DNA of 64,000 bases from Duganella zoogloeoides (GTDB lineage: Bacteria; Pseudomonadota; Gammaproteobacteria; Burkholderiales; Burkholderiaceae_D). The position numbers were made by a program, and so were the translations under genes. Shown in pieces: positions 7,030 through 50,076 of the stretch. Location of the stretch: contig NZ_CP140152.1 in NCBI RefSeq assembly GCF_034479515.1, positions 5,642,001 through 5,706,000 of the forward strand. The letters run 5' to 3'. The notes beneath the pieces were generated by a model, which saw nothing but the letters and a program-made list of their open reading frames with translations, ran no database searches and was not told the origin of the DNA. Every line of letters begins with the position of its first letter. Within the stretch, counting starts at the first letter, position 1.

Positions 7030-10000
7030 TCAGGCCACGTGCGCCTGCCGCACCAGCTCAATCACCTTTTCAGCCGGCTGTTCAAAAGCGGCAATCAAGC
7101 CCGCCTCCTTCTGCCTGGCCGCCTTCAGGTGGCGTTCCTTGACGTGGCCATAACCGCGGATATCTTCGGGAATGCTGGCAATCGCCACCGCCTGCGCCAG
7201 GTTCGCTACCGTCAGCTTGGGCAGCAGCGCACGTACGGTCTCGCGGTACTGGCCGATCAGGGCGCGCTCGGTCTTGCGCTCTTCGGTGTAGCCGAAGATA
7301 TCGAGGGCCGTGCCGCGCAAGCCCTTGAATTTGGCCAGCACGCCAAACGCCTTCATCATCCACGGACCGAACTCCTTTTTCACCAGCTGGCCCTGGGCGT
7401 CGTGCCTGGCCATGATCGGCGGCGCCAGGTGGAACTTGAGCGTGATGTCGCCCTCGAACATGGCGGCGATCTTTTTCTGGAACGCGCCGTCGGTGTACAG
7501 GCGCGCCACCTCGTACTCGTCCTTGTAGGCCATCAGCTTGTAGTAGTAGCGCGCCACGGCTTCGGCCAGGCGCGTGCCCTTGCCCAGTTTCGCTTCGGCG
7601 GCGCGCACGTCGTCCACCAGCGCCAGGTACTGCTGCGCGTACGCCGCATTCTGGTACGCGGTGAGCAGTTCCATCCGTTTGGCAATGACGTCGTCGAGCG
7701 TCTGGATGCGCTTGAACTCGATCACCTTCGCTGGCGCGGTCAGGCGCGTGACCGAACCGAGGTCGTGCGCGGCCGTGCGGCCCCAGGTAAACGCGGCCTG
7801 GTTGAACGCCACCGACACGCCATTGAGTTCGATCGCGCGCACAATCGATGATTCCGACAGCGGCACATGGCCCTTCTGGAACGCATAGCCGAGCATGAAC
7901 ATATTGGTGGCGATCGAGTCGCCCATCAGCGCGGTGGCGATCTGGCCGGCATCGACGAAGTCGGCCATGTTCTCGCCGCAGGCGCGCACGATTTCGCTGC
8001 GCGAGCTGGCGTCCGGGAACTGCCAGTCCGGGTTCTTGACGAATGCCGCCGTCGATGAGCCGGTGGAGTTGATCATGGCGTGCGTGCGGTTTTCTCCCAT
8101 GCGCGACAGGGCGTCGCGGCTGGCCGTGACGATCAGGTCGCAGCCGATCACCAGGTCGGCGCTGCCGGTGCCCACGCGGGTGGAGTGCAGGTCGGCTTGA
8201 CTGTCGGCCAGGCGCACGTGCGACATCACCGGGCCGCCCTTTTGCGCCAGGCCACTCATGTCGAGCACGATGGCGCCCTTGCCCTCCACGTGCGCCGCCA
8301 CGGCCAGGATCTGGCCGACCGTCACCACGCCGGTGCCGCCGATGCCGGTGATCAGGATGCCGTACGGTTGCGCGGTCGAGGGCAGTACCGGCGTCGGCAG
8401 CACCGCAGGCGGGGTTGCGTTACCCGCAGCATCCTTGCCGGCAGCAGCCTTCTTCGGCTTTTTCAGGGCGCCGCCTTCCACCGTCACAAAGCTCGGGCAG
8501 AAACCGGTGGTGCACGAAAAGTCCTTGTTGCACGACGACTGGTTGATCTGGCGCTTGCGGCCCAGTTCCGTCTCCAGTGGTTCGACCGACAGGCAGTTCG
8601 ACTGCACCGAACAGTCGCCGCAGCCTTCGCACACGGCCTCATTGATCACGGCGCGCTTGGCCGGATCGGGGTACTCGTTGCGTTTCCGGCGGCGGCGTTT
8701 TTCCGACGCACAGGTCTGGTCATAGATCATGGCCGACACGCCCGGCTGGTCGCGCAGTTCGCGCTGCACGTCCATCAGTTCCGAACGGTGGCGCACGGTC
8801 ACGCCTTCAGCCCACTTGTAATCGGACGGGTATTTATCGGGTTCGTCGGTGACGACGATGATCGGCGTGACACCTTCGGCGGCGATCTGGCGCGAGATCA
8901 TGCCGGGATCGAGCGGACCGTCGAACGACTGGCCGCCGGTCATGGCCACCGCGTCGTTGAACAGGATTTTATAGGTGATGTTGACCTTGGCCGCGACGGC
9001 GGCGCGGATCGCCAGGATGCCGGAGTGGAAATACGTGCCGTCACCGAGGTTGGTAAACACGTGCTTCTCGTTGGTGAACGGCGCCTGCCCCACCCAGGTG
9101 ACGCCTTCGGCGCCCATGTGGGTAAACGTGGACGTTTCGCGGTCCATCCACAGCACCATGTAATGGCAGCCGATGCCGGCCAGCGCGCGCGAGCCTTCCG
9201 GCACCTTGGTCGAACTGTTGTGCGGACACCCCGAGCAGAAGAACGGCGTGCGGTCGGTCTGCGGATTCGGTTTTGCCGGCAGCGTGGTCAGCGCCAGCTC
9301 CTTCGCCTCGAGGAAGGCGATGCGCTGCTTGACGCGCTCCGCCACCGGGTGGCCATCGCAGTAATGGGCGATGCGCGAAGCGATCGCGCGGGCGATCTGC
9401 GCGGGATTGAGTTCGTACGTGGCCGGCAGCAGCCAGTCGCCGTGGCCGGTCTTGCCCTTGTTGCTCCACTCGCCCGTGTCGTCGAATTTGCCCACCACGC
9501 GCGGACGTTCGCCGTCGGGCAGGTTGTACAGCTCTTCCTTCAACGCGTATTCGAGGATTTGCCGTTTTTCTTCGACCACCAGGATTTCGTCGAGGCCCTT
9601 GGCAAATTCGTGCACGCCGTCCGCTTCGAGCGGCCAGGTCATGCCGATTTTGTACAGGCGGATGCCGATGTCGGCGGCGGCCTGCTCGTCGATGCCCAAG
9701 TCGGCCAGCGCCTGGCGCGTGTCGAGGTACGACTTGCCGGCGGTGATGATGCCGATCTTGGGCTTGGGGCTGTCCCAGATGATCTTGTTGAGTTTGTTGG
9801 CGCGGCAGTACGCCAGGGCCGCGTACCACTTGTAGGTGTTCATCCGTACTTCCATGTCAAGCACGGTGTCGGGCCAGCGGATGTTGAGGCCCCCGGCCGG
9901 CAGCTCGAAGTCCGTCGGCAGCTCGATCTTGACGCGGTCCGGGTCGAAATCGACCACCGCGCCCGACTCGATGATGTCGGTGACGCACTTCATCGACACC

Positions 10001-10632
10001 CACAGGCCGGTGTAGCGGCTCATGGCCCACGCGTGCAGCCCGTAGTCGATGTACTCCTGCACCGAGGCCGGGTACAGCACCGGGATGCCGCAGGCATTGA
10101 GGATGTGATCCGACTGGTGCGCAGTGGACGACGACTTGGCGGCATGGTCGTCGCCGGCCAGTACCAGCACGCCGCCGTGCTGTGCGGAGCCGGCGTTGTT
10201 GGCGTGCTTGAAGACGTCGCCGCAGCGATCGACGCCCGGGCCTTTGCCGTACCACATCGAGAACACGCCGTCGTACTTGGCGTCCTTGAACAGGTTGGTC
10301 TGCTGGGTGCCCCAGACGGCGGTGGCGGCCAGGTCTTCGTTCATGCCGGGATGGAACTTGACGTGGTGGGCGTCGAGGTATTTCTTGGCCTTCATGGCCG
10401 TCATGTCCACGCTGGTGACGGGGGAGCCGCGATAGCCGGTGATGTAGCCGGCGGTATTGAGGCCGGCCTGCAAGTCGCGTTCGCGCTGCATCATCGGCAG
10501 GCGGATCAGGGCCTGGGTGCCGGTCATGAAGGCGCGGCCGCGTTCGAGCGTCCACTTGTCGTCGAGCGAGAATTCAGGTACATCCGTCGGGATGGCCGGA
10601 TCCAGTAGCAAACCCTTTTGAGGTGCGTTCAT
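7030..10632 (-). CDS. Indolepyruvate ferredoxin oxidoreductase, fused alpha/beta type
   Basis: This roughly 1200-residue protein starts at the ATG of MNAPQKGLLLDP, preceded by GGAGA. It decarboxylates aryl-pyruvates (indolepyruvate, phenylpyruvate, hydroxyphenylpyruvate) to aryl-acetyl-CoA with transfer of electrons to ferredoxin or a similar carrier. The order is an N-terminal pyrimidine-binding half, a TPP-binding half with FCSGCPHNSSTKVPEGS and GDGTYFHSG, an iron-sulfur segment CEGCGDCSVQSNC plus CNKDFSCTTGFCPSF, and a C-terminal gamma-type domain starting ITGIGGTGVVTVGQ. Such long fusions are common in aerobic proteobacteria. It lies 107 bases downstream of hpd on the same strand, which points to a shared role in phenylalanine/tyrosine/tryptophan breakdown. 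Confidence 0.92.
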   Translation of the reverse strand: MNAPQKGLLLDPAIPTDVPEFSLDDKWTLERGRAFMTGTQALIRLPMMQRERDLQAGLNTAGYITGYRGSPVTSVDMTAMKAKKYLDAHHVKFHPGMNEDLAATAVWGTQQTNLFKDAKYDGVFSMWYGKGPGVDRCGDVFKHANNAGSAQHGGVLVLAGDDHAAKSSSTAHQSDHILNACGIPVLYPASVQEYIDYGLHAWAMSRYTGLWVSMKCVTDIIESGAVVDFDPDRVKIELPTDFELPAGGLNIRWPDTVLDMEVRMNTYKWYAALAYCRANKLNKIIWDSPKPKIGIITAGKSYLDTRQALADLGIDEQAAADIGIRLYKIGMTWPLEADGVHEFAKGLDEILVVEEKRQILEYALKEELYNLPDGERPRVVGKFDDTGEWSNKGKTGHGDWLLPATYELNPAQIARAIASRIAHYCDGHPVAERVKQRIAFLEAKELALTTLPAKPNPQTDRTPFFCSGCPHNSSTKVPEGSRALAGIGCHYMVLWMDRETSTFTHMGAEGVTWVGQAPFTNEKHVFTNLGDGTYFHSGILAIRAAVAAKVNITYKILFNDAVAMTGGQSFDGPLDPGMISRQIAAEGVTPIIVVTDEPDKYPSDYKWAEGVTVRHRSELMDVQRELRDQPGVSAMIYDQTCASEKRRRRKRNEYPDPAKRAVINEAVCEGCGDCSVQSNCLSVEPLETELGRKRQINQSSCNKDFSCTTGFCPSFVTVEGGALKKPKKAAAGKDAAGNATPPAVLPTPVLPSTAQPYGILITGIGGTGVVTVGQILAVAAHVEGKGAIVLDMSGLAQKGGPVMSHVRLADSQADLHSTRVGTGSADLVIGCDLIVTASRDALSRMGENRTHAMINSTGSSTAAFVKNPDWQFPDASSRSEIVRACGENMADFVDAGQIATALMGDSIATNMFMLGYAFQKGHVPLSESSIVRAIELNGVSVAFNQAAFTWGRTAAHDLGSVTRLTAPAKVIEFKRIQTLDDVIAKRMELLTAYQNAAYAQQYLALVDDVRAAEAKLGKGTRLAEAVARYYYKLMAYKDEYEVARLYTDGAFQKKIAAMFEGDITLKFHLAPPIMARHDAQGQLVKKEFGPWMMKAFGVLAKFKGLRGTALDIFGYTEERKTERALIGQYRETVRALLPKLTVANLAQAVAIASIPEDIRGYGHVKERHLKAARQKEAGLIAAFEQPAEKVIELVRQAHVA

Positions 10633-10738
10633 TGTGTTTGTCTCCACTATTCTTGCAGTGCGCGCCTCGTGAGCGCGCACGGAATGTGCTTCAGTGCCGG
10701 CGCGCCAATCTGTGAGGCGCTGCCGGCGAAAATAACGA

Positions 10739-11851
<1,113 letters not shown>

Positions 11852-11990: not shown

Positions 11991-12521
11991 ATGACCAAAG
12001 TTGCATTGGACAAAACCGATCGCAAAATTCTGTCCATTTTGCAAGCCGACGGCCGGCTGTCCAACCAGGATGTTGCCGAGATGGTGGCGCTGTCGCCATC
12101 GCCGTGCCTGCGCCGCATCAAGCGGCTCGAAGAGGCTGGCGTGATCCGCCAGTACGTGGCGCTGCTCGACCCCGACAAGATCGGCCTGGGCCTGCTGGCC
12201 TATGTGAACGTGCGGCTGGAAAAGCACAGCGACGCCGGCGCCCACAGCAACGCGCGCGCGCTGGGCGCCCCCAATGCGCCACCGTCGCCGCGCGCCGACT
12301 TTGCCGACTCGGTGGGACAGTGGCCCGAAGTAGTGGCCTGCTATGCGATGACGGGGGAGATGGATTACCTGCTGCGCGTGCACGTGGAAGACATGGAGCA
12401 CTTCTCGCGCTTCATGATGGCCACCCTGCTGCGCCACCCGGCGGTGCTCGACGTGAAATCGAGCTTCGCCCTGCAGCGCATCAAGGATACGACCGCGCTG
12501 CCGCTGACCAGCCAGCCGTAA
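11991..12521 (+). CDS. Lrp/AsnC-family transcriptional regulator
   Basis: This 176-residue protein has an N-terminal helix-turn-helix (about residues 8-55, DRKILSILQADGRLSNQDVA followed by SPSPCLRRIKRLEEAGVI) and a C-terminal RAM ligand-binding domain (GEMDYLLRVHVEDMEHFSRF). Between them is an Ala/Pro-rich insertion, HSNARALGAPNAPPSPRADF, that ordinary Lrp proteins of about 155 residues lack. Position opposite hpd and palindromes in the shared promoter suggest it senses an aromatic amino acid or its keto acid and controls hpd and IOR. It converges on dsbD with a 6-base gap. Confidence 0.9.
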   Translation: MTKVALDKTDRKILSILQADGRLSNQDVAEMVALSPSPCLRRIKRLEEAGVIRQYVALLDPDKIGLGLLAYVNVRLEKHSDAGAHSNARALGAPNAPPSPRADFADSVGQWPEVVACYAMTGEMDYLLRVHVEDMEHFSRFMMATLLRHPAVLDVKSSFALQRIKDTTALPLTSQP

Positions 12522-12527
12522 CCACTG

Positions 12528-14426
12528 TTATGGGAAGTGACGGTTCAGATGATTTAAAAACGGCTCGGCTTTCATGAAGCCGATCACGCGGCTGCCCGGC
12601 ACTTCCTGGCCATCCTTGAACAGGATCATGCCGGGCGGGCCGAACAGGCCGAAGCGTTTCATCAGCGCCTTGTCGTCGGCGTTATTGGCCGTCACGTCCA
12701 CCTGCAGTACGCGAATCCTGGCCATCTTGTCCTTCACTGCCTGCTGCGAAAACGTGAAGCGCTCCATCTCCTTGCACGACACGCACCAGTCGGCGTAGAA
12801 GTCCAGCATCACCGGGGTCCTGGTGGTGGCCAGGACCTGGTCCAGCTCCGCCACGGTTTTGATGCGCGGGAAGTGCGCGTCGGCCGCCGCCGGCGCGGCG
12901 CCTGCGTCACCACCGCGCGCCGCCAGATGACCGAGCGGCTGCAGCACATCGCGGCCACCGCTGGCGGCGCCCGTCAGTTCCAGCACACCGACCAGCAGCA
13001 GCGCCATGCCCAGCGCCTTGCCCACGTACGTGCCCAGTCCGGCCCCCTTGGGCGCGGATTCGAACACGTTGAGGAACGCGGCGCACAGCAGCGCGAACAC
13101 ACCCCACAGCACCATGCCGGTCGTGGCCGAGAAAACCGGCGTGATCATCCAGATCGCGGTGGCGATCAGCAGCAGGCCAAACAGCTTTTTCACGCCATTC
13201 ATCCAGCCGCCGGCGCGCGGCAGCAGGCTGCCGGCCGAGATCCCAGTCAGCAGCAGCGGCACGCTCATGCCCACGGCCATCGAGAACAGCGCCCAGCCGC
13301 CGGTCCAGACGTTGCGGGTCTGGCTGATGTACAGCAGCGCACCGGCCAGCGGACCGGCCACGCACGGCCCCACGATCAGGGCCGACAGCGCCCCCATGAC
13401 AAACACGCCGGCGAACTTGCCGCCGCCCATATTGCCGCTGGCGGAACTGAGGCGGCTTTGCAGGTTGCTGGGCAGCTGCAACTGGTACACGTCGAACATC
13501 GACAGCGAGAGCACGAACAGCAGCGCGCCAAAGGTCAGCAGCACGGCCGGTTTTTGCAGCGCTGCCGCCAGGCCTTCGCCGGCCAGGCCCGCCGCCACCC
13601 CGAGCGAGGTATACACGAGCGCCATGCCCAGGCTGTAGGCCAGCGCCAGCGCGAAGCCGCGGCCACGCGACGGATTGCCTTCGCCGACGATGATCGACGA
13701 CAGGATCGGCACCATCGGCAGCACGCAGGGCGTAAACGACAGCAGCAGGCCGAAGACCAGGAAGGCGAGGCCGATGCGCCAGGCGCTGCCGCTCTCCAGC
13801 GTGCGCTGGGCAATCGAGCTGTCGTCCTCATGCACGGCCGGCGCCGCAGTCGCTGCACCTGCCACCGCTAGCGGCACGGCCGGTGCAGCGCCAGCTGGTG
13901 CAGCGCCAGCCGGTGCCGCCGGCACAGCCTCGCCATCGGCCGGCAGCGCCGTCAGCACGCCGGTTTTGGCCGGGTCGATGGCATAGCTGGCACTGGCCGG
14001 CGCGTAGCACAGGCCCGCGTCGGCGCAGCCCTGGTAGTTCACGGTCAGCTTCATCGGCTTGCCAGACGCCAGCGGCAGATCGACCACCAGCTGATCCTGG
14101 TACGTCTCCATCTCCTTGTTGAAGTTGGTGTCGAACTTGCGGATGCCGTCCGGCAGGCGCGGCGTGGCCAGTGCCACGCCGTCGGCCTCGAAGCTCAGGC
14201 GCTCGCGGTACAGGTGGTAGTCGGGCGCAATCTTCCATGCCAGGCGCACGGTGCGGGCGTCGGTCTGGGTGGCGGTGAGCTTGAACGCCTGCTCGGGTTC
14301 GAGGAAGTCGGCGGCACGCGCCGGGTTGGCCATGCCAATGATCAGTGCCAGCAGCATGGCCAGGGCGGCCACCATCATGGCAGCCGGCATTTGCATGCGG
14401 CGCCACAGCCATTGTTGTGTTTTCAT
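12528..14426 (-). CDS. dsbD: Thiol:disulfide interchange protein DsbD
   Basis: This 632-residue protein moves electrons from cytoplasmic thioredoxin across the inner membrane to periplasmic thiol proteins. After an N-terminal membrane anchor/signal (about 15-38) come the periplasmic alpha domain with Cys134/Cys140 (GCADAGLC), an Ala/Pro-rich linker (about 168-197), a membrane beta domain of about eight helices with Cys234 (FTPCVLP) and Cys355 (GPCVAGP), and a C-terminal thioredoxin-like gamma domain with WCVSCK (Cys548/Cys551). All six redox cysteines are present. It is the last gene of the TlpA/DUF4266/DUF3570/ApbE cluster, one base after the apbE stop, and probably supplies reducing power to TlpA and partners. 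Confidence 0.95.
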   Translation of the reverse strand: MKTQQWLWRRMQMPAAMMVAALAMLLALIIGMANPARAADFLEPEQAFKLTATQTDARTVRLAWKIAPDYHLYRERLSFEADGVALATPRLPDGIRKFDTNFNKEMETYQDQLVVDLPLASGKPMKLTVNYQGCADAGLCYAPASASYAIDPAKTGVLTALPADGEAVPAAPAGAAPAGAAPAVPLAVAGAATAAPAVHEDDSSIAQRTLESGSAWRIGLAFLVFGLLLSFTPCVLPMVPILSSIIVGEGNPSRGRGFALALAYSLGMALVYTSLGVAAGLAGEGLAAALQKPAVLLTFGALLFVLSLSMFDVYQLQLPSNLQSRLSSASGNMGGGKFAGVFVMGALSALIVGPCVAGPLAGALLYISQTRNVWTGGWALFSMAVGMSVPLLLTGISAGSLLPRAGGWMNGVKKLFGLLLIATAIWMITPVFSATTGMVLWGVFALLCAAFLNVFESAPKGAGLGTYVGKALGMALLLVGVLELTGAASGGRDVLQPLGHLAARGGDAGAAPAAADAHFPRIKTVAELDQVLATTRTPVMLDFYADWCVSCKEMERFTFSQQAVKDKMARIRVLQVDVTANNADDKALMKRFGLFGPPGMILFKDGQEVPGSRVIGFMKAEPFLNHLNRHFP

Positions 14427-14427
14427 G

Positions 14428-15324
14428 TCAGAGATTCCTGTAAAGCGTCTGTCCGTGCTCGTCGATGGCCAGGTAGCCCATGTCGGAGGTCTTGAGAAAA
14501 GTGTGTCCTTCGTGTTGCTTGAGCATGGCGATGGTGGAGCAGCTGCCCGCCGCCACCGCCATCGGCGCCATCACGCTCACCGAGCGCCAGTACCGCACCG
14601 GCATGCCGGTGCGCGGATCGAGGATGTGGCAGTAGCGCACGCCATCGAGCTCGAAAAACCGCTCGTAGTCGCCGCTGGTGGTCAAGGCACCGGAGCTGAT
14701 CGGGATGCTGGCAATTGTGGCGCCGGGGTCGCGCGGGTCCTGGATGCCGATGCTCCACGGCCGCCCGTCCAGGCGCGGGCCGATAAAGCGCATGTCGCCG
14801 CCCAGGTTTACGTATCCGTGCCGCACGCCGGCCTCGATCAGCACCGCCGCCGCGCGGTCGGCCGCATATTCCTTGCCGAAGCCGCCGAAGTCGATCTCCA
14901 TGCCCGGTTGCAGCAGGTACACCTGCTGCCGCTCGCAATGGACATGGCGCCAGCCCACCAGCGCCAGCAACGGCCCCAGGGTATCGGCATCGGGCACGCG
15001 CGGCTTGCCGAAGTCCCAGGCCCGGCGCAGTACGCCCGACGTGATGTCGAACAGGCCGCCGCTGGCCGCAAACAGCGCGGCCGCGTAATCGATCAGCGCC
15101 ATGGTCTCGCTGTCGCACGCCACCGGCGCGCGGCCGGCAGCAGCGTTGATGCGCGAGACGATGCTGTCGGGCCGGTAGCGCGAATACTTGGTCTCGATTC
15201 GCCGCACTTCGGCGATCGCGCGCGCCGCCAGCGCTGCGGCCGCCGCCGCGTTCGGCGCCGACAGGCGCAACTCGCAGCGGCTGCCCATGGCGTCGAACTG
15301 CTGGCGGTGGATGGCCGCTACCAT
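14428..15324 (-). CDS. apbE: ApbE-family FAD:protein FMN transferase
   Basis: This 298-residue protein belongs to the family that attaches FMN to Ser/Thr of target proteins. Readable motifs are DFGGFGKEYAAD (145-156), SGALTTSGDYERFF (211-224) and HILDPRTGMP (233-242). The segment equivalent to the usual A-D-A-x-x-T metal site reads AGSCST (259-264), so the metal-binding Asp appears replaced. No signal peptide or lipobox is visible, unlike many ApbEs. The ATG overlaps the DUF3570 stop region by 7 bases and dsbD starts one base after its stop, so it is translationally embedded in the cluster. The likely substrate is the neighbouring DUF3570 protein. Export of the protein or action in the cytoplasm is unresolved. 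Confidence 0.88.
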   Translation of the reverse strand: MVAAIHRQQFDAMGSRCELRLSAPNAAAAAALAARAIAEVRRIETKYSRYRPDSIVSRINAAAGRAPVACDSETMALIDYAAALFAASGGLFDITSGVLRRAWDFGKPRVPDADTLGPLLALVGWRHVHCERQQVYLLQPGMEIDFGGFGKEYAADRAAAVLIEAGVRHGYVNLGGDMRFIGPRLDGRPWSIGIQDPRDPGATIASIPISSGALTTSGDYERFFELDGVRYCHILDPRTGMPVRYWRSVSVMAPMAVAAGSCSTIAMLKQHEGHTFLKTSDMGYLAIDEHGQTLYRNL

Positions 15325-16469
15325 GTGCGGTTGACCGCCAGCTGGATGGTGCGCGCGCGCAGCGGTTCGAGGCCCGGGCTGCCCGAGCCGAACGCGCGCC
15401 AGCTGCCGCGTTGCTGGTAGGCCGAGACCTTGGCATCGACCGACCAGTCCTTGTCGATCTGCTTGCTCACCTTGAGGCCCAGCGTCACCGCGCCGAAGCC
15501 CGAGAGCCGGTAATCGGCCGACGCGAAGTTGCTCGGACTGTAGCCCGGCGGGAACGGCTGGCCCAGCGCCTGGTCGTACACGGGATCGAAATAAAAGTCG
15601 GCCGCGCGCTGGCTGTACAACCGTACTTCCGGCGTGACGGTCCAGCCATCGGCCAGCGGCTGCACAAACTCCTGGCCCAGCGTGTGGCCGCGCACGCCGA
15701 AGCTGTCGCGGTAATAGCGGTACGACGTGCGGCTGGTGCCGCCGGTCGCTTCCACGTAATGGTTCCAGCGCAGCAGCAGCGTGCTTTCGTCGCGGCTGCG
15801 CGGGCGGTTATCGGGAAACTTGTACGGATCGTTGAAGTATCCCTTGCCGATATCGTGGGCCAGCGTGACCTGCACCACGTCGGCCTTGCCCAGCACCTGC
15901 GTCACGCCGAGCAGCAAGTTGGTGCTGTGTTTGCGCTCGTCCCGGACGATCTGGTTGGTGGGGTTGATTTCATCGTTGGCCCGGCCGATGCCGGCCGACC
16001 AGGTGGTGTTGCGGTCTTCGCTCTCGAAGGTACCCGACAACGACACTGCGCGCGACAGGTAATCGTCCTCGGACGAATATGCCGCCCCCACGGTCAGGCT
16101 GCCGCGGTCGAAGTAGCGCTTGACGGCAACGTCGCCGGCCGTGCGATGGTCGCTCATGCGCGAGGCGCCCGATACCGCGCTGTGGTAGCGCGGGGTAGCG
16201 CCCGAGACGTCGTCATTCACGGCCGAAGCGCTGATGCTCCACACGCCGGCCACCGGGGCCATGACAGACACCGACGGCGCCTTCACGTGGATGCGGTCGA
16301 GGCCCGACTGGCTGTCCTTGTAATCGAGGTAGCCGATGCTGATCACGCCATTGGTGGGCAGTGCCTCGGCCTGCGCCTGCACGCCGGGCAGCAGCAGCGC
16401 GGCAGCGAGGATGGCGGAGGCCGCGAAGGGAGACGTAGCGGACGGGGTTTCGGTCTTGATAGGTTCCAT
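15318..16469 (-). CDS. DUF3570 outer-membrane beta-barrel protein, candidate flavoprotein
   Basis: This 383-residue protein starts at the ATG of MEPIKTETPS, chosen because AGGA lies 8 bases upstream. An ATG two codons earlier is too close to it. The signal peptide ends at about residue 34 (GVQAQAEA). The rest reads as alternating beta-strands ending in an aromatic residue (LAVNRTW), typical of a barrel. Near the mature N-terminus is D86-D-V-S-G-A-T92, which matches the D-x-x-(S/T)-G-A-T motif flavinylated by ApbE in NqrC/RnfG, followed by a second SAVSGAS at 97-103. DUF3570 genes commonly sit with DUF4266, ApbE and a thioredoxin-like gene, as here. Function is unknown; flavin-based electron transfer at the outer membrane is an inference. 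Confidence 0.85.
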   Translation of the reverse strand: MEPIKTETPSATSPFAASAILAAALLLPGVQAQAEALPTNGVISIGYLDYKDSQSGLDRIHVKAPSVSVMAPVAGVWSISASAVNDDVSGATPRYHSAVSGASRMSDHRTAGDVAVKRYFDRGSLTVGAAYSSEDDYLSRAVSLSGTFESEDRNTTWSAGIGRANDEINPTNQIVRDERKHSTNLLLGVTQVLGKADVVQVTLAHDIGKGYFNDPYKFPDNRPRSRDESTLLLRWNHYVEATGGTSRTSYRYYRDSFGVRGHTLGQEFVQPLADGWTVTPEVRLYSQRAADFYFDPVYDQALGQPFPPGYSPSNFASADYRLSGFGAVTLGLKVSKQIDKDWSVDAKVSAYQQRGSWRAFGSGSPGLEPLRARTIQLAVNRTW

Positions 16470-16479
16470 GTGCATAGTC

Positions 16480-16695
16480 CTAGTTGCAGCCGCAGCCGCC
16501 GCCACCGACGCCGGCGCCGCCCGAAGACGATTCGCGGCTGGTGTAGATATGGTCGTCATAGCGGTTGAACACCCCGCTGTCGTTGAAGGTCATTTCGGGC
16601 TTGGCCAGGTTGCCCTTTTCCCACGGCTGCACCTGGCCGAAGCCTGCACAACCGGTCAGCCCTGCGGCCAGCATGAGCACGAACACGAGCTTCAT
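16480..16695 (-). CDS. DUF4266 small lipoprotein with Cys-rich C-terminus
   Basis: This 71-residue protein begins MKLVFVLMLAAGLTGCAGFG, a clear lipoprotein signal with lipobox L-T-G-C and lipidated Cys16. Residue 17 is not Asp, so outer-membrane sorting is expected. The middle carries PWEKGNLAKPEM and DDHIYTSRE, and the last residues are GGGGCGCN, giving two further cysteines (68 and 70). The start overlaps the tlpA stop by ATGA, so translation is coupled. DUF4266 has no known biochemical role. The terminal C-x-C could be a redox, metal-binding or modification site and a TlpA substrate, but that is inference. Confidence 0.88.
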   Translation of the reverse strand: MKLVFVLMLAAGLTGCAGFGQVQPWEKGNLAKPEMTFNDSGVFNRYDDHIYTSRESSSGGAGVGGGGCGCN

Positions 16696-17198
16696 TTGGC
16701 CGCTCCCAGGGCGGCGACGATCTGCGCCTCCAGGGCGGCGCGGTCGCTGTCGCGGAAACCGGAATGCTCGGCGATCACCTTGCCGTCGGCGCCTACCAGC
16801 ACGCTGCTGGGCATGCCCTTGATGCCGTACTGGCGCGGGGTGGCACCCTTGGGATCGAAAGCGATGGTGAACCTGGCCGGCGTGGTGGCGAGGAATTTGC
16901 GCGCCTCGTCGCTGGTGGCGTCCACGTTGACGCCCACGATCTGCAAACCGCGCGCGCCGTACTTGGCCTGCATCTCGTTCATCCAAGGGAACGACTGGCG
17001 GCACGGACCGCACCACGATGCCCAGAAGTCCACGTACACCACCTTGCCCTGCAGGCTGGCCAGCTTGACCTCGCCGTCAGCGCCCGGCAGCGTGAACTGC
17101 GGTGCGGGCGCCCCCTTGTCCAGCGCCAGCACCAGCGCGGGCGCTGCGGCCAGCGTAACGGCCAGTGCGGCCGCCGATACCATCGATAACATCTTCAT
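16692..17198 (-). CDS. TlpA-like periplasmic thioredoxin-fold protein
   Basis: This 168-residue protein has an N-terminal signal or anchor (about 1-26) and an AhpC/TSA-type thioredoxin fold. The redox motif is WASWCGPCRQSFPWMNEMQ, with Cys63/Cys66, in a protein of normal TlpA/ResA length. The ATG is preceded by GAGGAGC. It is followed by DUF4266 with a 4-base overlap and preceded by the cytochrome/JDVT-CTERM gene after 67 bases. TlpA-type proteins reduce specific disulfides in the periplasm and are kept reduced by DsbD, encoded at the end of the same cluster. The C-x-C of DUF4266 or the haem-binding CxxCH of the cytochrome are plausible clients. Confidence 0.92.
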   Translation of the reverse strand: MKMLSMVSAAALAVTLAAAPALVLALDKGAPAPQFTLPGADGEVKLASLQGKVVYVDFWASWCGPCRQSFPWMNEMQAKYGARGLQIVGVNVDATSDEARKFLATTPARFTIAFDPKGATPRQYGIKGMPSSVLVGADGKVIAEHSGFRDSDRAALEAQIVAALGAAK

Positions 17199-17265
17199 TG
17201 CTTAGCTCCTCGGTTGGTGTTGGGCGGGCCGCCGCGTGGCGGCCCGGTATGTCATGCCGGCGCGA

Positions 17266-19398
17266 TCACGTGCTGCGCTTGCGGCGCCAGAAGATCACGC
17301 CGCCGGCCAGCAGGACCAGGAAGGCCAGCATCGGGTCGTTGACGTCTTGCGAGGCCGAGCAACCGCCGCCGCCGGTGTTCTGCGGCGTGGCGTTGGCTGC
17401 CGGTGCTGCAGTGGCCTGGCCGGTCAAGGCGATGGTCGAGCTGCCGCCGGCCACGTTCGCATTGAGCACGATGGAACCGCTATTGCTGCCCGGGTTGACC
17501 GGGGTATAGCGCACCACCAGGTCGCAGGTGGCGCCGGGATTGAGCGTGAGCGGGAACGCGGCGCAGCCGGTGCTGTCGGTCACCTGGGCGAACGGACCGC
17601 TGAAGGTGGCGCCGGACAGTGTGAGCGCAGCCGAACCGCTGTTGGTCAGCGTGAAGCGGCGCGTTGGCGTGGCGCCGATGGTGACAGCGCCGAAGTCGAA
17701 GCTTTGCGGATTGACGCCAAGCGCCGGCGCACCGGCTGCCACAGCCACGCCATTGCCGCCCAGCGCCAGCGAGAACTGCGCGCCGCCGTCGGTGACGACC
17801 ATCAGCGTGGCGCTGCGGGCGCCAGTTGCCGTCGGACGCAGCGCCGTGGTCAGGGTGCAGCTGGCGCCGGCGCCCACCTGGGCGTTGGCCACGCAGGTGC
17901 CGCCGAGGACGAAGTCGCCGGGATTGGCGCCGCCCAGCGTGAGCGTGGCGATGCGCAGCGCAGCGGTACCGGCGTTATTGAAGGTGGTCGTGTGCACGGC
18001 GGCCGTGGCGCCCACCTGGGTGTCGGCAAACGCGATCGGTCCGGCTTCGGACAAGACCGGTACGCCAACCGCCTGGGCGCTGCCGGTGCCGGTGACCGCC
18101 ACTTGCAGCGGCGCAGCGTTCGAGGTGACGGCCAGGGTGGCGGCAATGGCGCCAGGGGTGGTCGGTGCAAAGCGCAGCGGCACCGAGCAGCGCGCGCCCA
18201 CGGCCAGCGTGCTGCCGCAATCGCTGCCCGCGATGGTGACGCTGGCAGCGCCGGTGACGCCGATGCTGGCGATGTTCAGGACCACGTTGCCGGTATTGGC
18301 CAGTACCACGGTCTGCGCGACGGCCGGCGTGTTGACGGTCTGCGCGCCAAAGGCGATGGCCGATGGTGTAGCAGTCACCGCCGGGGCGGCGGCGCTGGCG
18401 GTGCCGCTCAAGCCCACGCCGGCGCTGCCATTGGCAGCGTTCGACGCCAGCGTCAGCGTGCCGGCAAAGGCGCCGGCGGCGGTTGGCGTGGCGGTAACGG
18501 TCACGGTGCAACTGGCGCCGGCGGCCACCGGGGTGGCGGTGGCGCAGGTGCCACCCACCGTGAAGAAGCCGGCGTTGGCGCCGCCCACGGCGATGCTGCT
18601 GAACGTGAGCGCGGCCTGGCCGCTGTTGGTGACGGTGACGGCAGATGGCGCGGACGCAGCGCCCGTCAGCTGGGCGCCAAAGTTGATGGTGGCAGCCGAC
18701 AGGCCGATGGTGGCTTGCGGCGTGCTGTTGCCGGTGCCGGAGAGGGCCACGCTGCTGCTGCCGCCTGTGGCGTTATGGGTGATGGTGAGCGTGGCGGCGC
18801 GGCTGCCGGCGGCAGTCGGACGGAAACTGGTTTGCACGGTGCAGCTGGCGCCGGCGGCAACCGCCGCGCCGTTGGCGCAGGTGCCGCCGCCGATGCTGTA
18901 ATCGCCCGCAGCGGCACCGCCCAGTGCGATGGTGCCGATGTTGAGCGCGGCGCTGCCGGTGTTGCTGAGCGTAGTGGACAGCGGGCCGCTGGTCAGGCCG
19001 ATGGCGGTGCCGGTAAACGTCAGGCTCGCCGGCGCCAGCGAAGCTGCGGGCGCGGCCGTCACATTCGGGTTGCCGATGAACGCGGCCAGGTCTTCCAGTT
19101 CGGTGGACGAGAACCGGCCCGTGAACAGGCTGCCCATGCCGCCGCGATTGTTGGCAATCGCATTGGCGATCACGGACGGCTGGTTGGCCGCGCGCGTGAT
19201 GCCGTTGACATTGGCCGCCGGCGAGGCGCCGTGGCACGACGCGCAACTGGCGCCGCCGGTCACCGGGCCGTTGAGATACAAATTCCTGCCGTTGAGCGCA
19301 TCGGCGGCGCCTGCATGCGGCGCAGCTGCTGCCGCCCCGATGATCAATGCCGCCCCGGCCATACGCGCCGCCAATCCCGTCCCCATTGTCCCGCCCAT
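17266..19398 (-). CDS. c-type cytochrome with choice-of-anchor D (Ig-like) repeats and JDVT-CTERM sorting tail
   Basis: This 710-residue exported protein has a signal peptide (about 12-31) and a small cytochrome c domain with CASCHG (Cys52, Cys55, His56) and a likely axial Met88 (NNRGGMG). It then has about five repeats of roughly 100 residues of the ASPM/SPD-2/Hydin (choice-of-anchor D) type, each ending in a Cys-containing GASC or GATC turn. The last 35 residues are a sorting signal: GGGGCS (Cys680), a short Asp-rich linker, a hydrophobic helix and RRKRST. This matches the JDVT-CTERM pattern. The cognate-looking protease gene is immediately upstream. The mono-haem domain suggests that this surface protein takes part in electron transfer. 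AGGAGA precedes the ATG. Confidence 0.88.
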   Translation of the reverse strand: MGGTMGTGLAARMAGAALIIGAAAAAPHAGAADALNGRNLYLNGPVTGGASCASCHGASPAANVNGITRAANQPSVIANAIANNRGGMGSLFTGRFSSTELEDLAAFIGNPNVTAAPAASLAPASLTFTGTAIGLTSGPLSTTLSNTGSAALNIGTIALGGAAAGDYSIGGGTCANGAAVAAGASCTVQTSFRPTAAGSRAATLTITHNATGGSSSVALSGTGNSTPQATIGLSAATINFGAQLTGAASAPSAVTVTNSGQAALTFSSIAVGGANAGFFTVGGTCATATPVAAGASCTVTVTATPTAAGAFAGTLTLASNAANGSAGVGLSGTASAAAPAVTATPSAIAFGAQTVNTPAVAQTVVLANTGNVVLNIASIGVTGAASVTIAGSDCGSTLAVGARCSVPLRFAPTTPGAIAATLAVTSNAAPLQVAVTGTGSAQAVGVPVLSEAGPIAFADTQVGATAAVHTTTFNNAGTAALRIATLTLGGANPGDFVLGGTCVANAQVGAGASCTLTTALRPTATGARSATLMVVTDGGAQFSLALGGNGVAVAAGAPALGVNPQSFDFGAVTIGATPTRRFTLTNSGSAALTLSGATFSGPFAQVTDSTGCAAFPLTLNPGATCDLVVRYTPVNPGSNSGSIVLNANVAGGSSTIALTGQATAAPAANATPQNTGGGGCSASQDVNDPMLAFLVLLAGGVIFWRRKRST

Positions 19399-19419
19399 GC
19401 CTGTTCTCCTGAAGTGAAT

Positions 19420-19785
19420 TTAGTTACTGCAAACGGAGATCGCAAAGGCATTCATGCCGCTGTGCGCCAGTGCGCACCAGCGCCAGCTGCGGGTGCGCGC
19501 ATACAGCATCGCCAGCACCACTCCCGGCCCCAGCACCGCCAGCGCCACGTGCCAGCCGCTGCCCAGGTGCAGCAGGCTGAAGGCGCCGGCCGACACCATC
19601 ACCGGCCACACCGAAGCCGGCCAGCGCCGCATCAGCCACTCCTGCAAACCGGCACGCACCACGAGTTCTTCGAGCACGGGCGAGAGCAGCAGCAGGCGCA
19701 GGAAGTCCCACGCCGACGGGGCATACAGGTGCGCGCCGCACGCGGCGTCCCAGGTCCAGGGCAGGATCGATGAAATCAGCGACAC
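19420..19785 (-). CDS. mrtJ: CPBP-type glutamic intramembrane protease of a JDVT-CTERM sorting system
   Basis: This 121-residue membrane protein carries all three CPBP (Abi/CAAX-like) motifs: EELVVR (Glu39-Glu40-Arg44), FSLLH (His73) and HSGMN (His108/Asn112), on hydrophobic helices. Proteases of this family process C-terminal sorting tails, and the gene lies 21 bases upstream of a protein ending in a JDVT-CTERM tail. The symbol is given from memory of the dedicated family. The only start in frame is GTG at 19785, because a stop lies about 50 bases further upstream and no ATG intervenes. The protein is therefore slightly short and may have lost N-terminal residues. A 161-base inverted-repeat element begins about 140 bases upstream. 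Confidence 0.8.
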   Translation of the reverse strand: MSLISSILPWTWDAACGAHLYAPSAWDFLRLLLLSPVLEELVVRAGLQEWLMRRWPASVWPVMVSAGAFSLLHLGSGWHVALAVLGPGVVLAMLYARTRSWRWCALAHSGMNAFAISVCSN

Positions 19786-19926: not shown

Positions 19927-20087
19927 GAGAACCTATTTCAGCAGGAATGAGGCAGCGGATTGCGATGCATCGGTGGCGGGGCCAAGGCGCGAGGAAGAAG
20001 CATGGCAGGCCATGCGATGACGAGCAACGCCGGCCCCGCTGCCGAGGCGCGCAAGCAGCGCCTCATTTCCTGCTGAGATAGGTTCTT
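19927..20087. repeat. MITE-like 161-bp inverted-repeat element overlapping a gene end
   Basis: The outer arms are near-identical: GAGAACCTATTTCAGCAGG at 19927-19945 continuing to GAATGAGGC, against the complement of 20061-20087. They differ by only a few bases over about 27. Inner parts also pair (CGGGGCC/GGCCCCG), and the centre has a GCATGGCAGGCCATGC hairpin, so the whole element can fold as one long stem. It contains no transposase. The right arm encodes the last eight residues (LRTYLSRK) and the stop codon of the GNAT gene. Confidence 0.7.
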
Positions 20088-20716
20088 AAGGCCTTGAAGG
20101 TGTAGTCGAGAGTGGCGAATTGTTCGTCGAGCGCTTCCTGCATCACGCTGGAAGGGTCGGCCGGCAGCAGCTTGAGGTAGGCGTCGGCCTCGCCGTATTC
20201 GCGGTGGATTTCCATGCCCGCCTTTTTGGCGATGTGCATCATGGTCTTGTTGGACGACAGGCAGTGCATGTACAGCGTATCGACATCGTTGTTGCGGCAG
20301 TGGATGGCGGCGCGCTCGAACATCTTCGAGCCGACGCCGATGCCGCGCGCGCTGCGGCTGACCGACACGCCGAATTCGGCCACGCGCGCCTTGTCGGTCA
20401 CCGCGTCCTGCGCGGCGTCGCGCGGGGCAAACGCCAGGTGGCCCACCGCCACCAGCCGGAACACGCGGTTGTACACGCCGAATACGATGTCACGCGAAAA
20501 ATCGATGGCAGCGACGTAGCGCTCGATCTGCTCGTCGGGCAGTTCGGTACCGAAGCGCAGCAGGCGGTCGGCCGGTTCGAGGTCGAGGAAGTGACGGCGC
20601 ATGCGGCGCCGGTCGCGCGGGTGCAGCTGCTTGACCGGCACGCGCGGGCGGTATTTGCCGTCGGGGGTTTTGCTGCGCGCGCGCAGCGGATTCTGGAACA
20701 GGTCGATGGGGGCCAT
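20063..20716 (-). CDS. GNAT-family N-acetyltransferase
   Basis: This 217-residue protein has a GNAT fold at about residues 55-175. The acetyl-CoA-binding loop reads SRSARGIGVGSKMFERAAIH, and the fold ends in LYMHCLSSNKTMMHIAKKAG. The first 45 residues are basic (RRRMRRHFLDLEP). It probably transfers an acetyl group to an amine or protein lysine; the substrate is unknown. The final LRTYLSRK and stop are supplied by an inverted-repeat element, so the native C-terminus has probably been replaced. It lies 33 bases downstream of cca on the same strand, so the two may share a transcript. Confidence 0.85.
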   Translation of the reverse strand: MAPIDLFQNPLRARSKTPDGKYRPRVPVKQLHPRDRRRMRRHFLDLEPADRLLRFGTELPDEQIERYVAAIDFSRDIVFGVYNRVFRLVAVGHLAFAPRDAAQDAVTDKARVAEFGVSVSRSARGIGVGSKMFERAAIHCRNNDVDTLYMHCLSSNKTMMHIAKKAGMEIHREYGEADAYLKLLPADPSSVMQEALDEQFATLDYTFKALRTYLSRK

Positions 20717-47736: not shown

Positions 47737-50076
47737 TCATTGTTGCGGCTGCGGTTGATAGAGCGGCTGCGGCAGCTGCGGCTGCGCTTGTGGCTGCCCC
47801 GGCGGCTGCGGCACGAGATTCTCGGCGCGGCCCGGCACAACTTGCGACGGCACGGTCTGGATCGGCCGCGCCAGCGTACCGCTGGCGGTCGGCTGGCCGC
47901 TCTGCATATTCGGCAGCATCGGCTGGCCCAGGTCCTTGACCAGGATGCTGTCCGGCGGTTTGATCGCCTCCTGGGCGCCGCGCATGTAGTCGTAGCGGTC
48001 GGTGGCCAGGCTGGTGCTCTGCTCCTTGCTGCGGATCACGACCGGGCGCAGGAACACCATCAAATTGGTTTTCTTGCGCGACCGCTTCTGGTACTTGAAC
48101 AGGTTGCCCAGGATCGGGATATCGCCGAGGCCACGGGTTTTATCGACGCTGTCACCCTCGGTGTCTTCGATCAGGCCGCCCAGCACGATGATCTGGCCGT
48201 CGTCGGCCACCACGTTGTTTTCGATCACGCGCTTGTTGATGGTGATGCCGGCTGCGGCGGACAGGGTCGACTGGTCCACGCTCGAGGTCTCGTGGTAAAT
48301 CGCCAGCTTGATGGTGCCGCCTTCCGAAATTTGCGGCCGCACCTTGAGCGTCAGGCCCACTTCCTTGCGGTCGATGGTCTGGAACGGGTTGGTGTTAGTG
48401 CCCGAGGTGGTGGTGAACTGGCCGGTCAGGATCGGCACGTTCTGGCCGACCGAAATGGTGGCCAGTTCATTGTCGAGCGTGATCATGTTCGGCGTGGACA
48501 GCACGTTGGCATTGCCGTCCGACTCCAGCGAACGGGCCAGCACGCCCAGGCCCAGGCCGCCGGCAACCTGCTTGAAGATGCCCACGGTCAGGCCGGCGCC
48601 GGGCAGGTTGGCAGCCGTGGCGGTGGACGTATTGCTGAGCGCCTGCGCCACGCCGAGAATGTTGTTGTTGGCGCCGGCCACGCTCGACGACTGCAAACCG
48701 CCCAGCCGGTACTTGCTGTTGGCGTCGCCGGTGGCGCCCAGCCACTGCACGCCGAACTCTGACGCCTTGTCGGACGACACTTCCACGATCAGCGATTCGA
48801 TGTACACCTGGGCGCGGCGCACGTCGAGCTGGTCGATCACGGCGCGCAAGTTGCGGTAGATCGATTCGGGCGCGGTGATGATCAGGGTATTGGTGGTGGC
48901 GTCGGCCTGGATGAAGCCGGCCTGGCCACCGCCGCCCTGTTGCTGCTGGTTGTTATTGCCGGTCAGCAGAGGGTTGGTGGGACCATTGGTGCCGCCGGTG
49001 TTGCTGCCCGAGCCAGAGTTGTTGCCGGTGTTGCTGCTCTGGCCGCCGAACGAATTGTTGTTCATGCCCTGGCCGCTGCTATTGCTGGTGCCGCCGCTGT
49101 TCTGGTTGGGATTGGACGTGTCGCCCGATACCAGCGAACGCAGGGTTTGCGCCAGCTTGACGGCCTCGGCATTTTTCAGGTACACCACGTGGACATTGCC
49201 CAGCTCCTGGGTAGGCTGGTCGAGCTTGGCGATCAGCGACTTGGCCAGGTTGGCGCGCGCCAGCGACGGCGCCCGCAGCACCAGCGAATTGGTGCGCGGA
49301 TCGGCCAGCACATTGACGCGGCCGGCATCACCACCGCCAGCGGCAGCCCCGCCACCGCTGGCATCCATCAGCTTGTTGATCATGGCGGCCAGGTCGCTGG
49401 CAATCGCGTAGCGCACCGGGATCACGTCGAGGTCGGCCGTGGCGGGTGCGTCGAGCGCGGCGATGATTTTCGCCAGGCGCTTGAGGTTGTCCGCGTAGTC
49501 GGTAATCACCACCGTGTTGTTGCCGGGGTTGGCGTTGATGGTGTTGTTGGGCGAAATCAGCGGGCGCAACACGGTGACCACGTTGTTGGCCGACTCGTAG
49601 TTGAGCTGGAAGATCTGGCTGACGATCTGGTCGCCCTTGATCTGGGTGGGCGCCGAGCCCACTTGCGTGGGCGACGATTGCAGCTTGGCGTCCGCCTCCG
49701 GCACCACCTTGGCGTAGCCGTCGCCGCTCACCACCGCAAAGCCCTGCAGGCGCAGCGCCGAGGTCAGCAGGCTGAACGCCTGCGACTTGGTGATCGATTT
49801 TTCCGACACCAGCGTCAACGTGCCCTTGACGCGCGGGTCGATCACGAAGGTGATGTTGGTGTAGTGGCCCACGGCCTTGATCACCGATTCGATGTCGGCG
49901 CCGACAAAATTGAGCGCGGCGGCGTCATCGTTACCGCTGCCGGCGGCGGCCTTGGCGGCGTGCGCGACGCCCGGCAGCAGCGCCGTGGCGGCAGGCGCCA
50001 CCAGCGCACAGCACAGCATCGCAGCAGCGTTCAGGCGACGCAGCGCGGGAAGTTGGGTTGGGCTCTGTTTTTTCAT
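47737..50076 (-). CDS. gspD: Type II secretion system secretin D
   Basis: This 779-residue outer-membrane secretin has a signal peptide (about 18-40), an N0 domain ([20 protein letters not shown]) and three N1-N3 repeats (for example [20 protein letters not shown] and [18 protein letters not shown]). A Gly/Asn/Ser-rich linker lies in N3, and the secretin core has VPILTGQ and [15 protein letters not shown]. The C-terminal tail is Pro/Gln-rich. It is preceded by gspN and followed by gspE. No pilotin gene is seen nearby. Confidence 0.95.

Follow-up and report, generated by a model that had tools for sequence, protein, structure and literature searches.

A JDVT-CTERM cytochrome gene linked to a DsbD-type flavinylation system: a seven-gene cluster possibly exporting electrons to the cell surface

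The window analyzed here is a DNA stretch of 64,000 nucleotides from a Duganella-type genome. Its minus strand carries, between positions 12528 and 19785, mrtJ, a JDVT-cytochrome gene, tlpA, the genes for a DUF4266 and a DUF3570 protein, apbE, and dsbD, all of them present as open reading frames with profile matches (Table 1). The arrangement on one strand described in the original prediction was confirmed, each of the seven products matching its family according to the profile scores. The spacing amounts to 21 bases between mrtJ and the JDVT gene and to 67 bases between the latter and tlpA, while the predicted ATGA overlap of tlpA and the DUF4266 gene, the 7-base overlap of the DUF3570 gene and apbE, and the gap of 1 base between apbE and dsbD were all recovered. 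The gap of 10 bases predicted between the DUF4266 and DUF3570 genes is true for the second ATG of the latter (16469), the first one (16475) being 4 bases away. A promoter and terminator scan of the cluster gave no signal above that of shuffled sequence.

Table 1. Features of the cluster and the type II secretion secretin gene of the window.
Feature	Position	Strand	Characteristics and basis
mrtJ	19420..19785	-	CPBP glutamic-type intramembrane protease for the JDVT-CTERM signal; NF033192 94 bits (cut-off 75); EExxxR and HxxxN
JDVT-CTERM monohaem cytochrome-like protein	17266..19398	-	five Ig-like choice-of-anchor D stretches; NF012200, NF033191; PF13442 just below cut-off
CASCH, haem c attachment motif (residues 52-56 of the JDVT protein)	19231..19245	-	sequence
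JDVT-CTERM sorting signal	17275..17373	-	GGGGC...NDP, membrane helix, RRKR; sole match in the genome
tlpA, thioredoxin-like	16692..17198	-	WCGPC, hydrophobic stretch at N-terminus; PF08534, PF00578 (Redoxin/AhpC-TSA)
DUF4266 small lipoprotein	16480..16695	-	LTGC lipobox, end GGGGCGCN; PF14086 80 bits (cut-off 27)
DUF3570, predicted 16-strand outer-membrane beta-barrel	15318..16475	-	flavinylation substrate family; PF12094 196 bits (cut-off 25)
DUF3570 flavinylation motifs SGAT (91-94) and SGAS (102-105)	16161..16205	-	end of strand 3 and loop after strand 3
apbE, FAD:protein FMN transferase	14428..15324	-	PF02424 260 bits (cut-off 25.6)
dsbD, transmembrane thiol-disulfide electron carrier	12528..14426	-	NF001419 573 bits (cut-off 330)
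gspD, type II secretion secretin, outside the cluster	48007..49914	-	TIGR02517 626 bits (cut-off 351)

The JDVT protein adjoins mrtJ and carries its sorting signal, including the invariant Cys, at the extreme C-terminus (NF033191, 53 bits; cut-off 27). Haem is read from the CxxCH motif of this protein, its cytochrome domain PF13442 scoring 26.4 bits with a cut-off of 27. Since a genome-wide profile search returned a single MrtJ above the cut-off and a single JDVT-CTERM, MrtJ is not a redox component, as originally assumed for this cluster; its role is very likely that of a protease dedicated to sorting the cytochrome. By analogy with MrtX of Myxococcus, as described in the available part of PMC11980579, the JDVT protein would be cleaved, lipid-anchored, and displayed at the surface. 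Type II secretion, represented in the genome by gspD, is presumed to be its route.

To evaluate the prevalence of this arrangement, 64 MrtJ loci of the window's family were examined, of which 58 were located in the cluster on the same strand, each with a CxxCH-bearing JDVT protein. The 64th locus (G666, 70.5 bits) is below the MrtJ cut-off, and three further sub-cut-off loci (G671 C59, G609, and G748 C58, 57.7 to 58.1 bits) were left out of the set. The linked loci span five genus codes, and the same set of genes on one strand was found in 58/58 of them, apbE aside, which is present in 50 and absent in 8; the flavin, thiol, and haem motifs were likewise intact throughout (58/58), and the JDVT proteins also share conserved cysteine pairs. 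As the linkage stems from few origins, these 58 loci do not represent 58 independent events. Outside the family, none of 53 other MrtJ loci (class sample, 52 of 369 genomes) was detected beside a DUF3570 match (E ≤ 1e-18; compared by eye), some contigs of the class sample being short enough for a link to be missed. Both MrtJ and DUF3570 occur in 25 of these 52 genomes, and DUF3570 systems were detected in 93 of the 369 class genomes sampled. The association that the original prediction proposed to survey is, hence, non-random within the family but confined to this one lineage.

The six unlinked MrtJ loci of the family comprise three with GSDH and NPCBM domains and no CxxCH, two with CxxCH (G600 and G741), and G173, which is in neither count. 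A rule by which the JDVT protein bears CxxCH if and only if DUF3570 adjoins was rejected, because the JDVT proteins of G600 and G741, in their full length, carry the motif. Ten proteins outside the cluster were scanned as candidate MrtJ targets, and JDVT was above the cut-off in five. Elsewhere in the family, JDVT is found on an oxidising enzyme that resembles glucose/sorbosone dehydrogenases.

The structure model of DUF3570 comprises 16 strands (pLDDT 86.9) and has outer-membrane barrels among its fold matches, the even strand number and the aromatic end being as expected of an outer-membrane beta-barrel; the flavin sites are predicted to lie on its outward side. At least two [ST]GA[ST] motifs are present in DUF3570 of all linked clusters (58/58), and DUF3570 of Chlorobium luteolum is described in the available part of PMC8238504 as flavinylated by its own ApbE at both sites. 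Kinship to MtrB/PioB was looked for: a comparison of 102 members with Pfam (E ≤ 1) gave no match of this kind among the 25 families listed out of 28, and the DUF3570 profile had no match among PDB sequences (E ≤ 1). MtrB is absent among the fold matches listed as well, such absence saying little. For the cluster's ApbE, no signal peptide was visible in a 12-residue hydropathy window, which was used in place of SignalP and misses some cases, as judged from its controls (DUF3570 56/58, TlpA 50/58). Contrary to this pattern, two gamma clusters of the large dihaem type (L213 and L219) encode an ApbE with a signal-like stretch.

Regarding the thiol components, a thioredoxin-like protein and DsbD are encoded in 58/58 linked clusters, and the CGCN end of DUF4266 corresponds to a C-terminal CxC that recurs in every one of the 83 homologues identified among the fetched loci. 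TlpA remained below the equivalog cut-offs of ResA (96 of 170 bits), TlpA (72.8 of 230), and DsbE (70.5 of 123), the best NCBIfam model being ResA, which is of the cytochrome c maturation type. The genome holds two DsbD_TM matches, one of them the dsbD of the cluster, and also a ResB system. In 12 of the 58 linked clusters, a single open reading frame encodes both the cytochrome and TlpA, which makes the JDVT signal internal and not C-terminal. These fused frames are not confined to a single position on the tree, which was calculated with a quick method and has two long branches; accordingly, several fusion places are claimed, and not a number of gains. Among the unfused pairs, the tlpA ATG is located at -4 in 22 of 46.

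On the DUF3570 tree, the linked members form almost one clade, and the linkage may therefore have arisen once. Clusters with other cytochromes are scattered on this tree (7 changes), and locus L161, inside the linked clade, encodes a different CxxCH protein at the same site. Sister clusters feature either another CxxCH protein or a protein whose flavinylation motif is of the Dxx[ST]GA[ST] type, never both (0/45), and 8 of 47 family clusters have no visible partner, five of these being located at contig ends. The putative surface partner is exchanged between clusters, for other CxxCH proteins or possibly for a flavinylated protein; the proteins with an SGAS motif may constitute a new class of the latter. 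At the class level, 40 DUF3570 loci were fetched, picked by score and contig size, and the calling of their neighbors relied on a codon model whose training set came from other genomes. No CxxCH protein was called within about 5.5 kb in 18 of 20 classical clusters (L188 to L207), indicating that such a protein is dispensable for the core. In the linked clusters, the JDVT protein has a single CxxCH and gene calling yielded no multihaem protein; among the 16 linked loci inspected for further CxxCH frames, none was called close to the core.

The core corresponds to the DsbD-type flavinylation system (DsbD, a thioredoxin-like protein, DUF4266, DUF3570, and ApbE) of Meheust et al. 2021 (PMC8238504), the available part of which proposes a hypothetical role in electron transfer with DsbD as the electron source. 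The view that no function had been assigned consequently applies to the physiological function and, in the literature searched, to the seven-gene form, but not to these five families. Both systems have two [ST]GA[ST] motifs in DUF3570 and the CxC end of DUF4266, whereas the cluster of the window adds mrtJ and the CxxCH-bearing JDVT protein, TlpA-fused in some loci; the available part of that paper mentions neither an exchange of partners nor the topology of the barrel nor the lack of a signal peptide in ApbE. The MrtJ/JDVT-CTERM pair, in turn, appears in the available part of PMC11980579, citing Haft's J Bacteriol paper, with a neighborhood of only two genes. As there, one CPBP protease adjoins a single target featuring an invariant Cys, a membrane helix, and an Arg-rich tail; unlike there, the pair resides in a redox cluster, and the target bears CxxCH and, in the 12 fused loci, an internal signal. 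The seven genes as one unit are new, since no earlier report tying the five-gene set to a surface haem protein was found in the literature searched. Porin-cytochrome conduits of the MtrCAB type move electrons to a surface cytochrome by way of a barrel that crosses the outer membrane. The relay proposed below would also take this course, but with a single CxxCH, covalent flavins, and thiols.

In our reading, the seven genes form a single operon-like unit for electron export, which runs from thiol to flavin to haem and ends at the cell surface, for which we estimate a probability slightly above one half (about 0.5). DsbD would deliver electrons from the cytoplasm to TlpA as thiols, and TlpA would reduce the lipoprotein DUF4266 at its CxC tail. 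Placed at the tip of a glycine-rich arm, this tail would reduce the two FMN groups of DUF3570; the putative arm would be needed, because the membrane that the barrel spans is too thick for a single electron hop. From the outward FMN, electrons would proceed to the monohaem cytochrome, which would be cut by MrtJ at the JDVT signal, secreted by the type II system, and held at the cell surface. The set of genes and its linkage, the fusions, the motifs, the predicted barrel, and the exchange of partners are computed results; we infer the direction and path of the electrons, the flavinylation in this cluster, the DUF4266 arm, the cleavage by MrtJ, the surface location, and the terminal acceptor. 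The envelope electron relay originally proposed is partly supported: the conserved linkage, the JDVT-TlpA fusions, the barrel prediction, and the intact motifs strengthen it, while its endpoint is moved from the outer membrane to, probably, the cell surface. Several observations speak against the relay: the JDVT proteins of G600 and G741, bearing CxxCH with no adjoining DUF3570; the classical clusters lacking a CxxCH protein and the family clusters lacking a partner; the scatter of clusters with other cytochromes on the tree; the PF13442 score under the cut-off; the signal peptide missing from the cluster's ApbE and apbE itself missing from 8 of the 58 clusters; and the few origins of the linkage. 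For one lineage of DUF3570 systems, the tie to a surface cytochrome and its sorting protease would make the cell surface the likely direction and provide an output that can be tested.

Alternatively, DsbD and TlpA could mature the cytochrome, keeping its CxxCH reduced for haem or correcting disulfides of the Ig-like stretches, with DUF3570 and ApbE unrelated. The affinity of TlpA to ResA, the CxxCH and cysteine pairs of the JDVT proteins, and the shared frames point in this direction; we nevertheless consider it improbable, because the ResA score is under the cut-off, TlpA is retained without a CxxCH neighbor (8 of 9 SGAS clusters and most classical clusters), the genome encodes another DsbD in addition to a ResB system, and DUF4266 and DUF3570 would be left unaccounted for. 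Slightly less probable is an inward flow, in which the surface cytochrome or flavin oxidises an outside substrate and the chain either supplies electrons to thiols of the periplasm or acts as a redox sensor for the environment. DsbD proteins normally send electrons outward, and the potential of monohaem cytochromes is usually above those of thiols and flavins, which favors export. On the other hand, the gene set does not fix the direction, JDVT elsewhere in the family sits on the dehydrogenase-like protein, and reversal is possible in principle according to the available part of PMC8238504. That two independent neighboring modules, one for a sorted surface cytochrome and one for flavinylation, were co-inherited from one ancestor is the least probable explanation: although the linked DUF3570 proteins are almost one clade, and JDVT cytochromes without an adjoining core and cores without JDVT both exist, the constant gene set across five genus codes, the fusions at several tree places, the -4 starts of tlpA, and the replacement in L161 argue against it.

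Electron export to the cell surface may also be viewed within a broader and more tentative framework, doubtful as a whole, that joins a haem-free DUF3570 flavin conduit with exchangeable carriers, an RTX-type ApbE substrate, and cytochrome-TlpA polyproteins. The barrel, with two covalent FMN groups facing outward, would be charged from the periplasm via the DUF4266 thiol arm, and the extracellular carriers would be JDVT-anchored cytochromes here and other cytochromes elsewhere. If the barrel is such a conduit, the outer membrane would be crossed without a multihaem protein. As its carrier, one of the sister lineages would use a secreted protein of the RTX type, itself an ApbE substrate of a new class that receives its modification in the cytoplasm, prior to export. 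The cytochrome-TlpA frames would be polyproteins in which the nominally C-terminal sorting signal acts from within the chain, and this would alter the view of CTERM sorting signals.

All seven genes of the original prediction, namely mrtJ, the gene of a cytochrome-like CxxCH protein with a JDVT-CTERM signal, tlpA, DUF4266, DUF3570, apbE, and dsbD, were found on the minus strand, and profile matches bore out their family assignments. The mrtJ gene is the only one in the genome over the MrtJ cut-off, and its neighbor encodes the only JDVT-CTERM protein; the dsbD is one of two and the apbE one of three in the genome. The closest named MrtJ relatives found were from Duganella phyllosphaerae and Duganella sp. 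Leaf126, followed by Massilia.

The seven-gene cluster and its surroundings in the window
Feature	Position	Strand	Remark
2-oxoacid:ferredoxin-oxidoreductase-like gene (large) and 4-hydroxyphenylpyruvate-dioxygenase-like gene	7030-11851		Adjoining the cluster; presumed identities, probably aromatic amino acid breakdown
Lrp-type gene	11991-12521	plus	Convergent, 6 bases from dsbD; bounds the cluster
Seven-gene cluster	12528-19785	minus	mrtJ to dsbD
apbE	14428-15324	minus	Within the cluster
GNAT gene	20063-20716		277-base gap to the cluster on the mrtJ side
gspD (type II secretion secretin)	48007-49914		About 28 kb away from the cluster

Meheust et al. 2021 (PMC8238504) described clusters in which DsbD and a thioredoxin-like protein are encoded with DUF4266, DUF3570, and ApbE. 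They proposed that thiol and flavin chemistry are combined there in a hybrid system, its purpose uncertain, and showed a Chlorobium DUF3570 to be flavinylated at two [ST]GA[ST] sites. Later work on flavinylation structures (PMC11334425) modelled other substrate domains and makes no mention of DUF3570. MrtJ and one JDVT-CTERM protein have been presented as a two-gene neighborhood only, in beta- and gamma-proteobacteria, and the related MrtX was shown to process a surface protein (PMC11980579). A limited literature search found no publication joining the pair with the flavinylation core, although such a report may already exist.

MrtJ exceeded the cut-off in 20 of 195 genomes of the family, and the DUF3570 cluster adjoined it in identical gene order in 16 of these, once (L140) without apbE. 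In a larger draw of 392 family genomes, which included the earlier 20, 63 were over the cut-off; 44 more loci were fetched (43 over the cut-off and one, in genome G666, below), and the cluster was present in 42. The pair thus stood beside the cluster in 58 of 64 family loci (57 of 63 over the cut-off), spanning genus codes g1, g6, g12, g19, and g33. All 58 linked loci lie on a single strand and carry the MrtJ motifs, CxxCH, the JDVT signature, WCxxC, the CxC end, DsbD, and a DUF3570 with two flavin motifs and an aromatic barrel end; apbE is present in 50. In a class sample of 369 genomes, MrtJ was detected in 53 and DUF3570 in 93, but, the window's own locus excepted, none of the 53 MrtJ loci had a DUF3570 match beside it. 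The non-random association holds within the family and was not seen outside it in the class sample: the link is real, but confined to one lineage in the genomes sampled. In three family loci (L144, L145, and L146), JDVT-CTERM is carried not by a cytochrome but by an NPCBM-domain protein that resembles glucose/sorbosone dehydrogenase.

Electrons would most likely leave DsbD for TlpA and then move outward by way of the DUF4266 arm and the barrel FMN to a surface haem, with iron, oxygen, and quinones as candidate terminal acceptors. The weakest step would be the passage across the barrel, into which the glycine-rich DUF4266 tail with its terminal CxC could extend; this CxC end, pointed out in PMC8238504, was found in 83 of 83 DUF4266 proteins. 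An AlphaFold2 model of DUF3570, built from 102 sequences, had 16 strands (pLDDT 86.9, pTM 0.85), and the listed Foldseek and VIA-align matches were outer-membrane proteins, chiefly porins and transporters, including OmpG (model residues 39-385 aligned to 4-280). Loops measured 2, 12, 2, 9, 14, 4, 37, and 15 residues after odd strands and 3, 3, 5, 4, 4, 4, and 4 after even strands, so those after odd strands should be outward. Since the first flavin motif lies at the end of strand 3 and the second within the following loop, both should face outward as well. That loop is weakly predicted (residues 100-103 under 50) and may bend into the channel; with the flavin sites so placed, modification would have to come before assembly.

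The ApbE proteins of the window and the related clusters show no visible signal peptide and seem to be cytoplasmic. In the window, the ApbE domain starts 11 residues after the only possible start codon, and among 94 cluster ApbE proteins surveyed (domain-start motif found in 86), a hydrophobic stretch ahead of the domain was seen only in the over-long frame of L148. Two gamma ApbE proteins from large dihaem-type clusters (L213 and L219) do have a signal-like stretch. As DUF3570 has a hydrophobic N-terminal stretch in 56 of 58 linked loci, FMN would be attached either before export or by another ApbE. Eight of the 58 loci (L140, L256, L286, L288, and L291-L294) lack apbE with both DUF3570 flavin motifs intact, and offer a natural test of supply by another ApbE.

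In the window, 67 bases lie between JDVT and tlpA. The two form a single open reading frame in 12 of 58 linked loci, and a tlpA ATG is found at -4 in 22 of the 46 unfused ones. Where they are fused, the signal (GGGGC, DP, membrane helix, RRR) passes directly into the hydrophobic stretch ahead of TlpA, and mrtJ is retained in all 12. We infer that these frames encode precursors with two cuts, by MrtJ and signal peptidase. In four junctions inspected base by base, no ATG occurred between RRR and the hydrophobic stretch; a GTG occurred there in two (L134 and L141), and all four had an in-frame ATG within the stretch that encodes the JDVT helix, so TlpA may have a start of its own. A fused-protein query, limited to 7994 candidates, yielded at least 65 proteins with E values of 1e-20 or lower. 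In 60 of those listed, a thioredoxin motif follows the internal signal, and 57 of the 60 have CxxCH; proteins under the names Undibacterium, Duganella, Pseudoduganella, Janthinobacterium, Roseateles, and Mitsuaria are among them. Fused forms appeared at three places in a quick tree.

Partners were surveyed at 47 DUF3570 loci of the 195-genome sample, a partial match in genome G151 being left out. They were a JDVT protein (16 loci), another protein with one CxxCH (10; on the opposite strand in L157, cut at contig ends in L173 and L301), a protein here termed SGAS (9), or a two-CxxCH protein some 1000 residues long (4); eight loci had no recognised partner, five of them at contig ends. Pfam checks of five of the ten other CxxCH proteins gave a cytochrome domain over the cut-off in L151 and L169, only DUF4214 in L149 and L163, and no match in L161, so haem in this group is predicted from the CxxCH motif. 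CxxCH and SGAS never occurred together in the 45 loci compared, and genomes G187 and G188 each have one JDVT and one SGAS cluster. On the DUF3570 tree, SGAS clusters form a single clade (9 rows, 100/98), and so do the JDVT clusters (17 rows, 99/97), interrupted only by L161, where another CxxCH protein occupies the JDVT protein's site; other CxxCH clusters are dispersed (7 changes). Elsewhere in the class, a CxxCH neighbor was absent from 18 of 20 classical clusters (L188-L207) and present at L191 and L192.

The SGAS genes (L150, L152, L156, L166, L167, L168, L170, L171, and L172) lie directly 3' of apbE. Residues 1-104 of the L156 protein, used as the query, found 14 matching places in 195 genomes. 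The nine strong matches (E 2.6e-17 or better, query included) were all in DUF3570 clusters, and the other five, which were weak (E between 5.6e-11 and 3.6e-6), all lay outside them. In a 67-member alignment, D55, A60, and S61 of the DxxSGAS motif (DSVGAAS in L156) were invariant and S58 reached at least 90%; [ST][GSA]A[ST] occurred in 129 of 216 domain matches, the remainder being mostly second repeats of the same proteins. The motif, placed by a structure model in a loop linking two strands, resembles the ApbE consensus in sequence. Three of four SGAS proteins checked had Ig, RTX, and DUF4214 domains, and no signal peptide was visible in the SGAS proteins. Judged by sequence, these secreted-looking proteins, which carry the motif in an N-terminal domain, are candidates for a new class of ApbE substrate.

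A further type of DUF3570 cluster encodes a protein of about 870-1020 residues with two CxxCH motifs (L153, L160, L174, L176, L212-L222, and L225-L227), or three in L227. Both such proteins checked (L153 and L160) had an HZS_alpha domain, and L160 additionally encodes an SH3-domain protein, a small barrel-like protein, and two large TPR-containing proteins.
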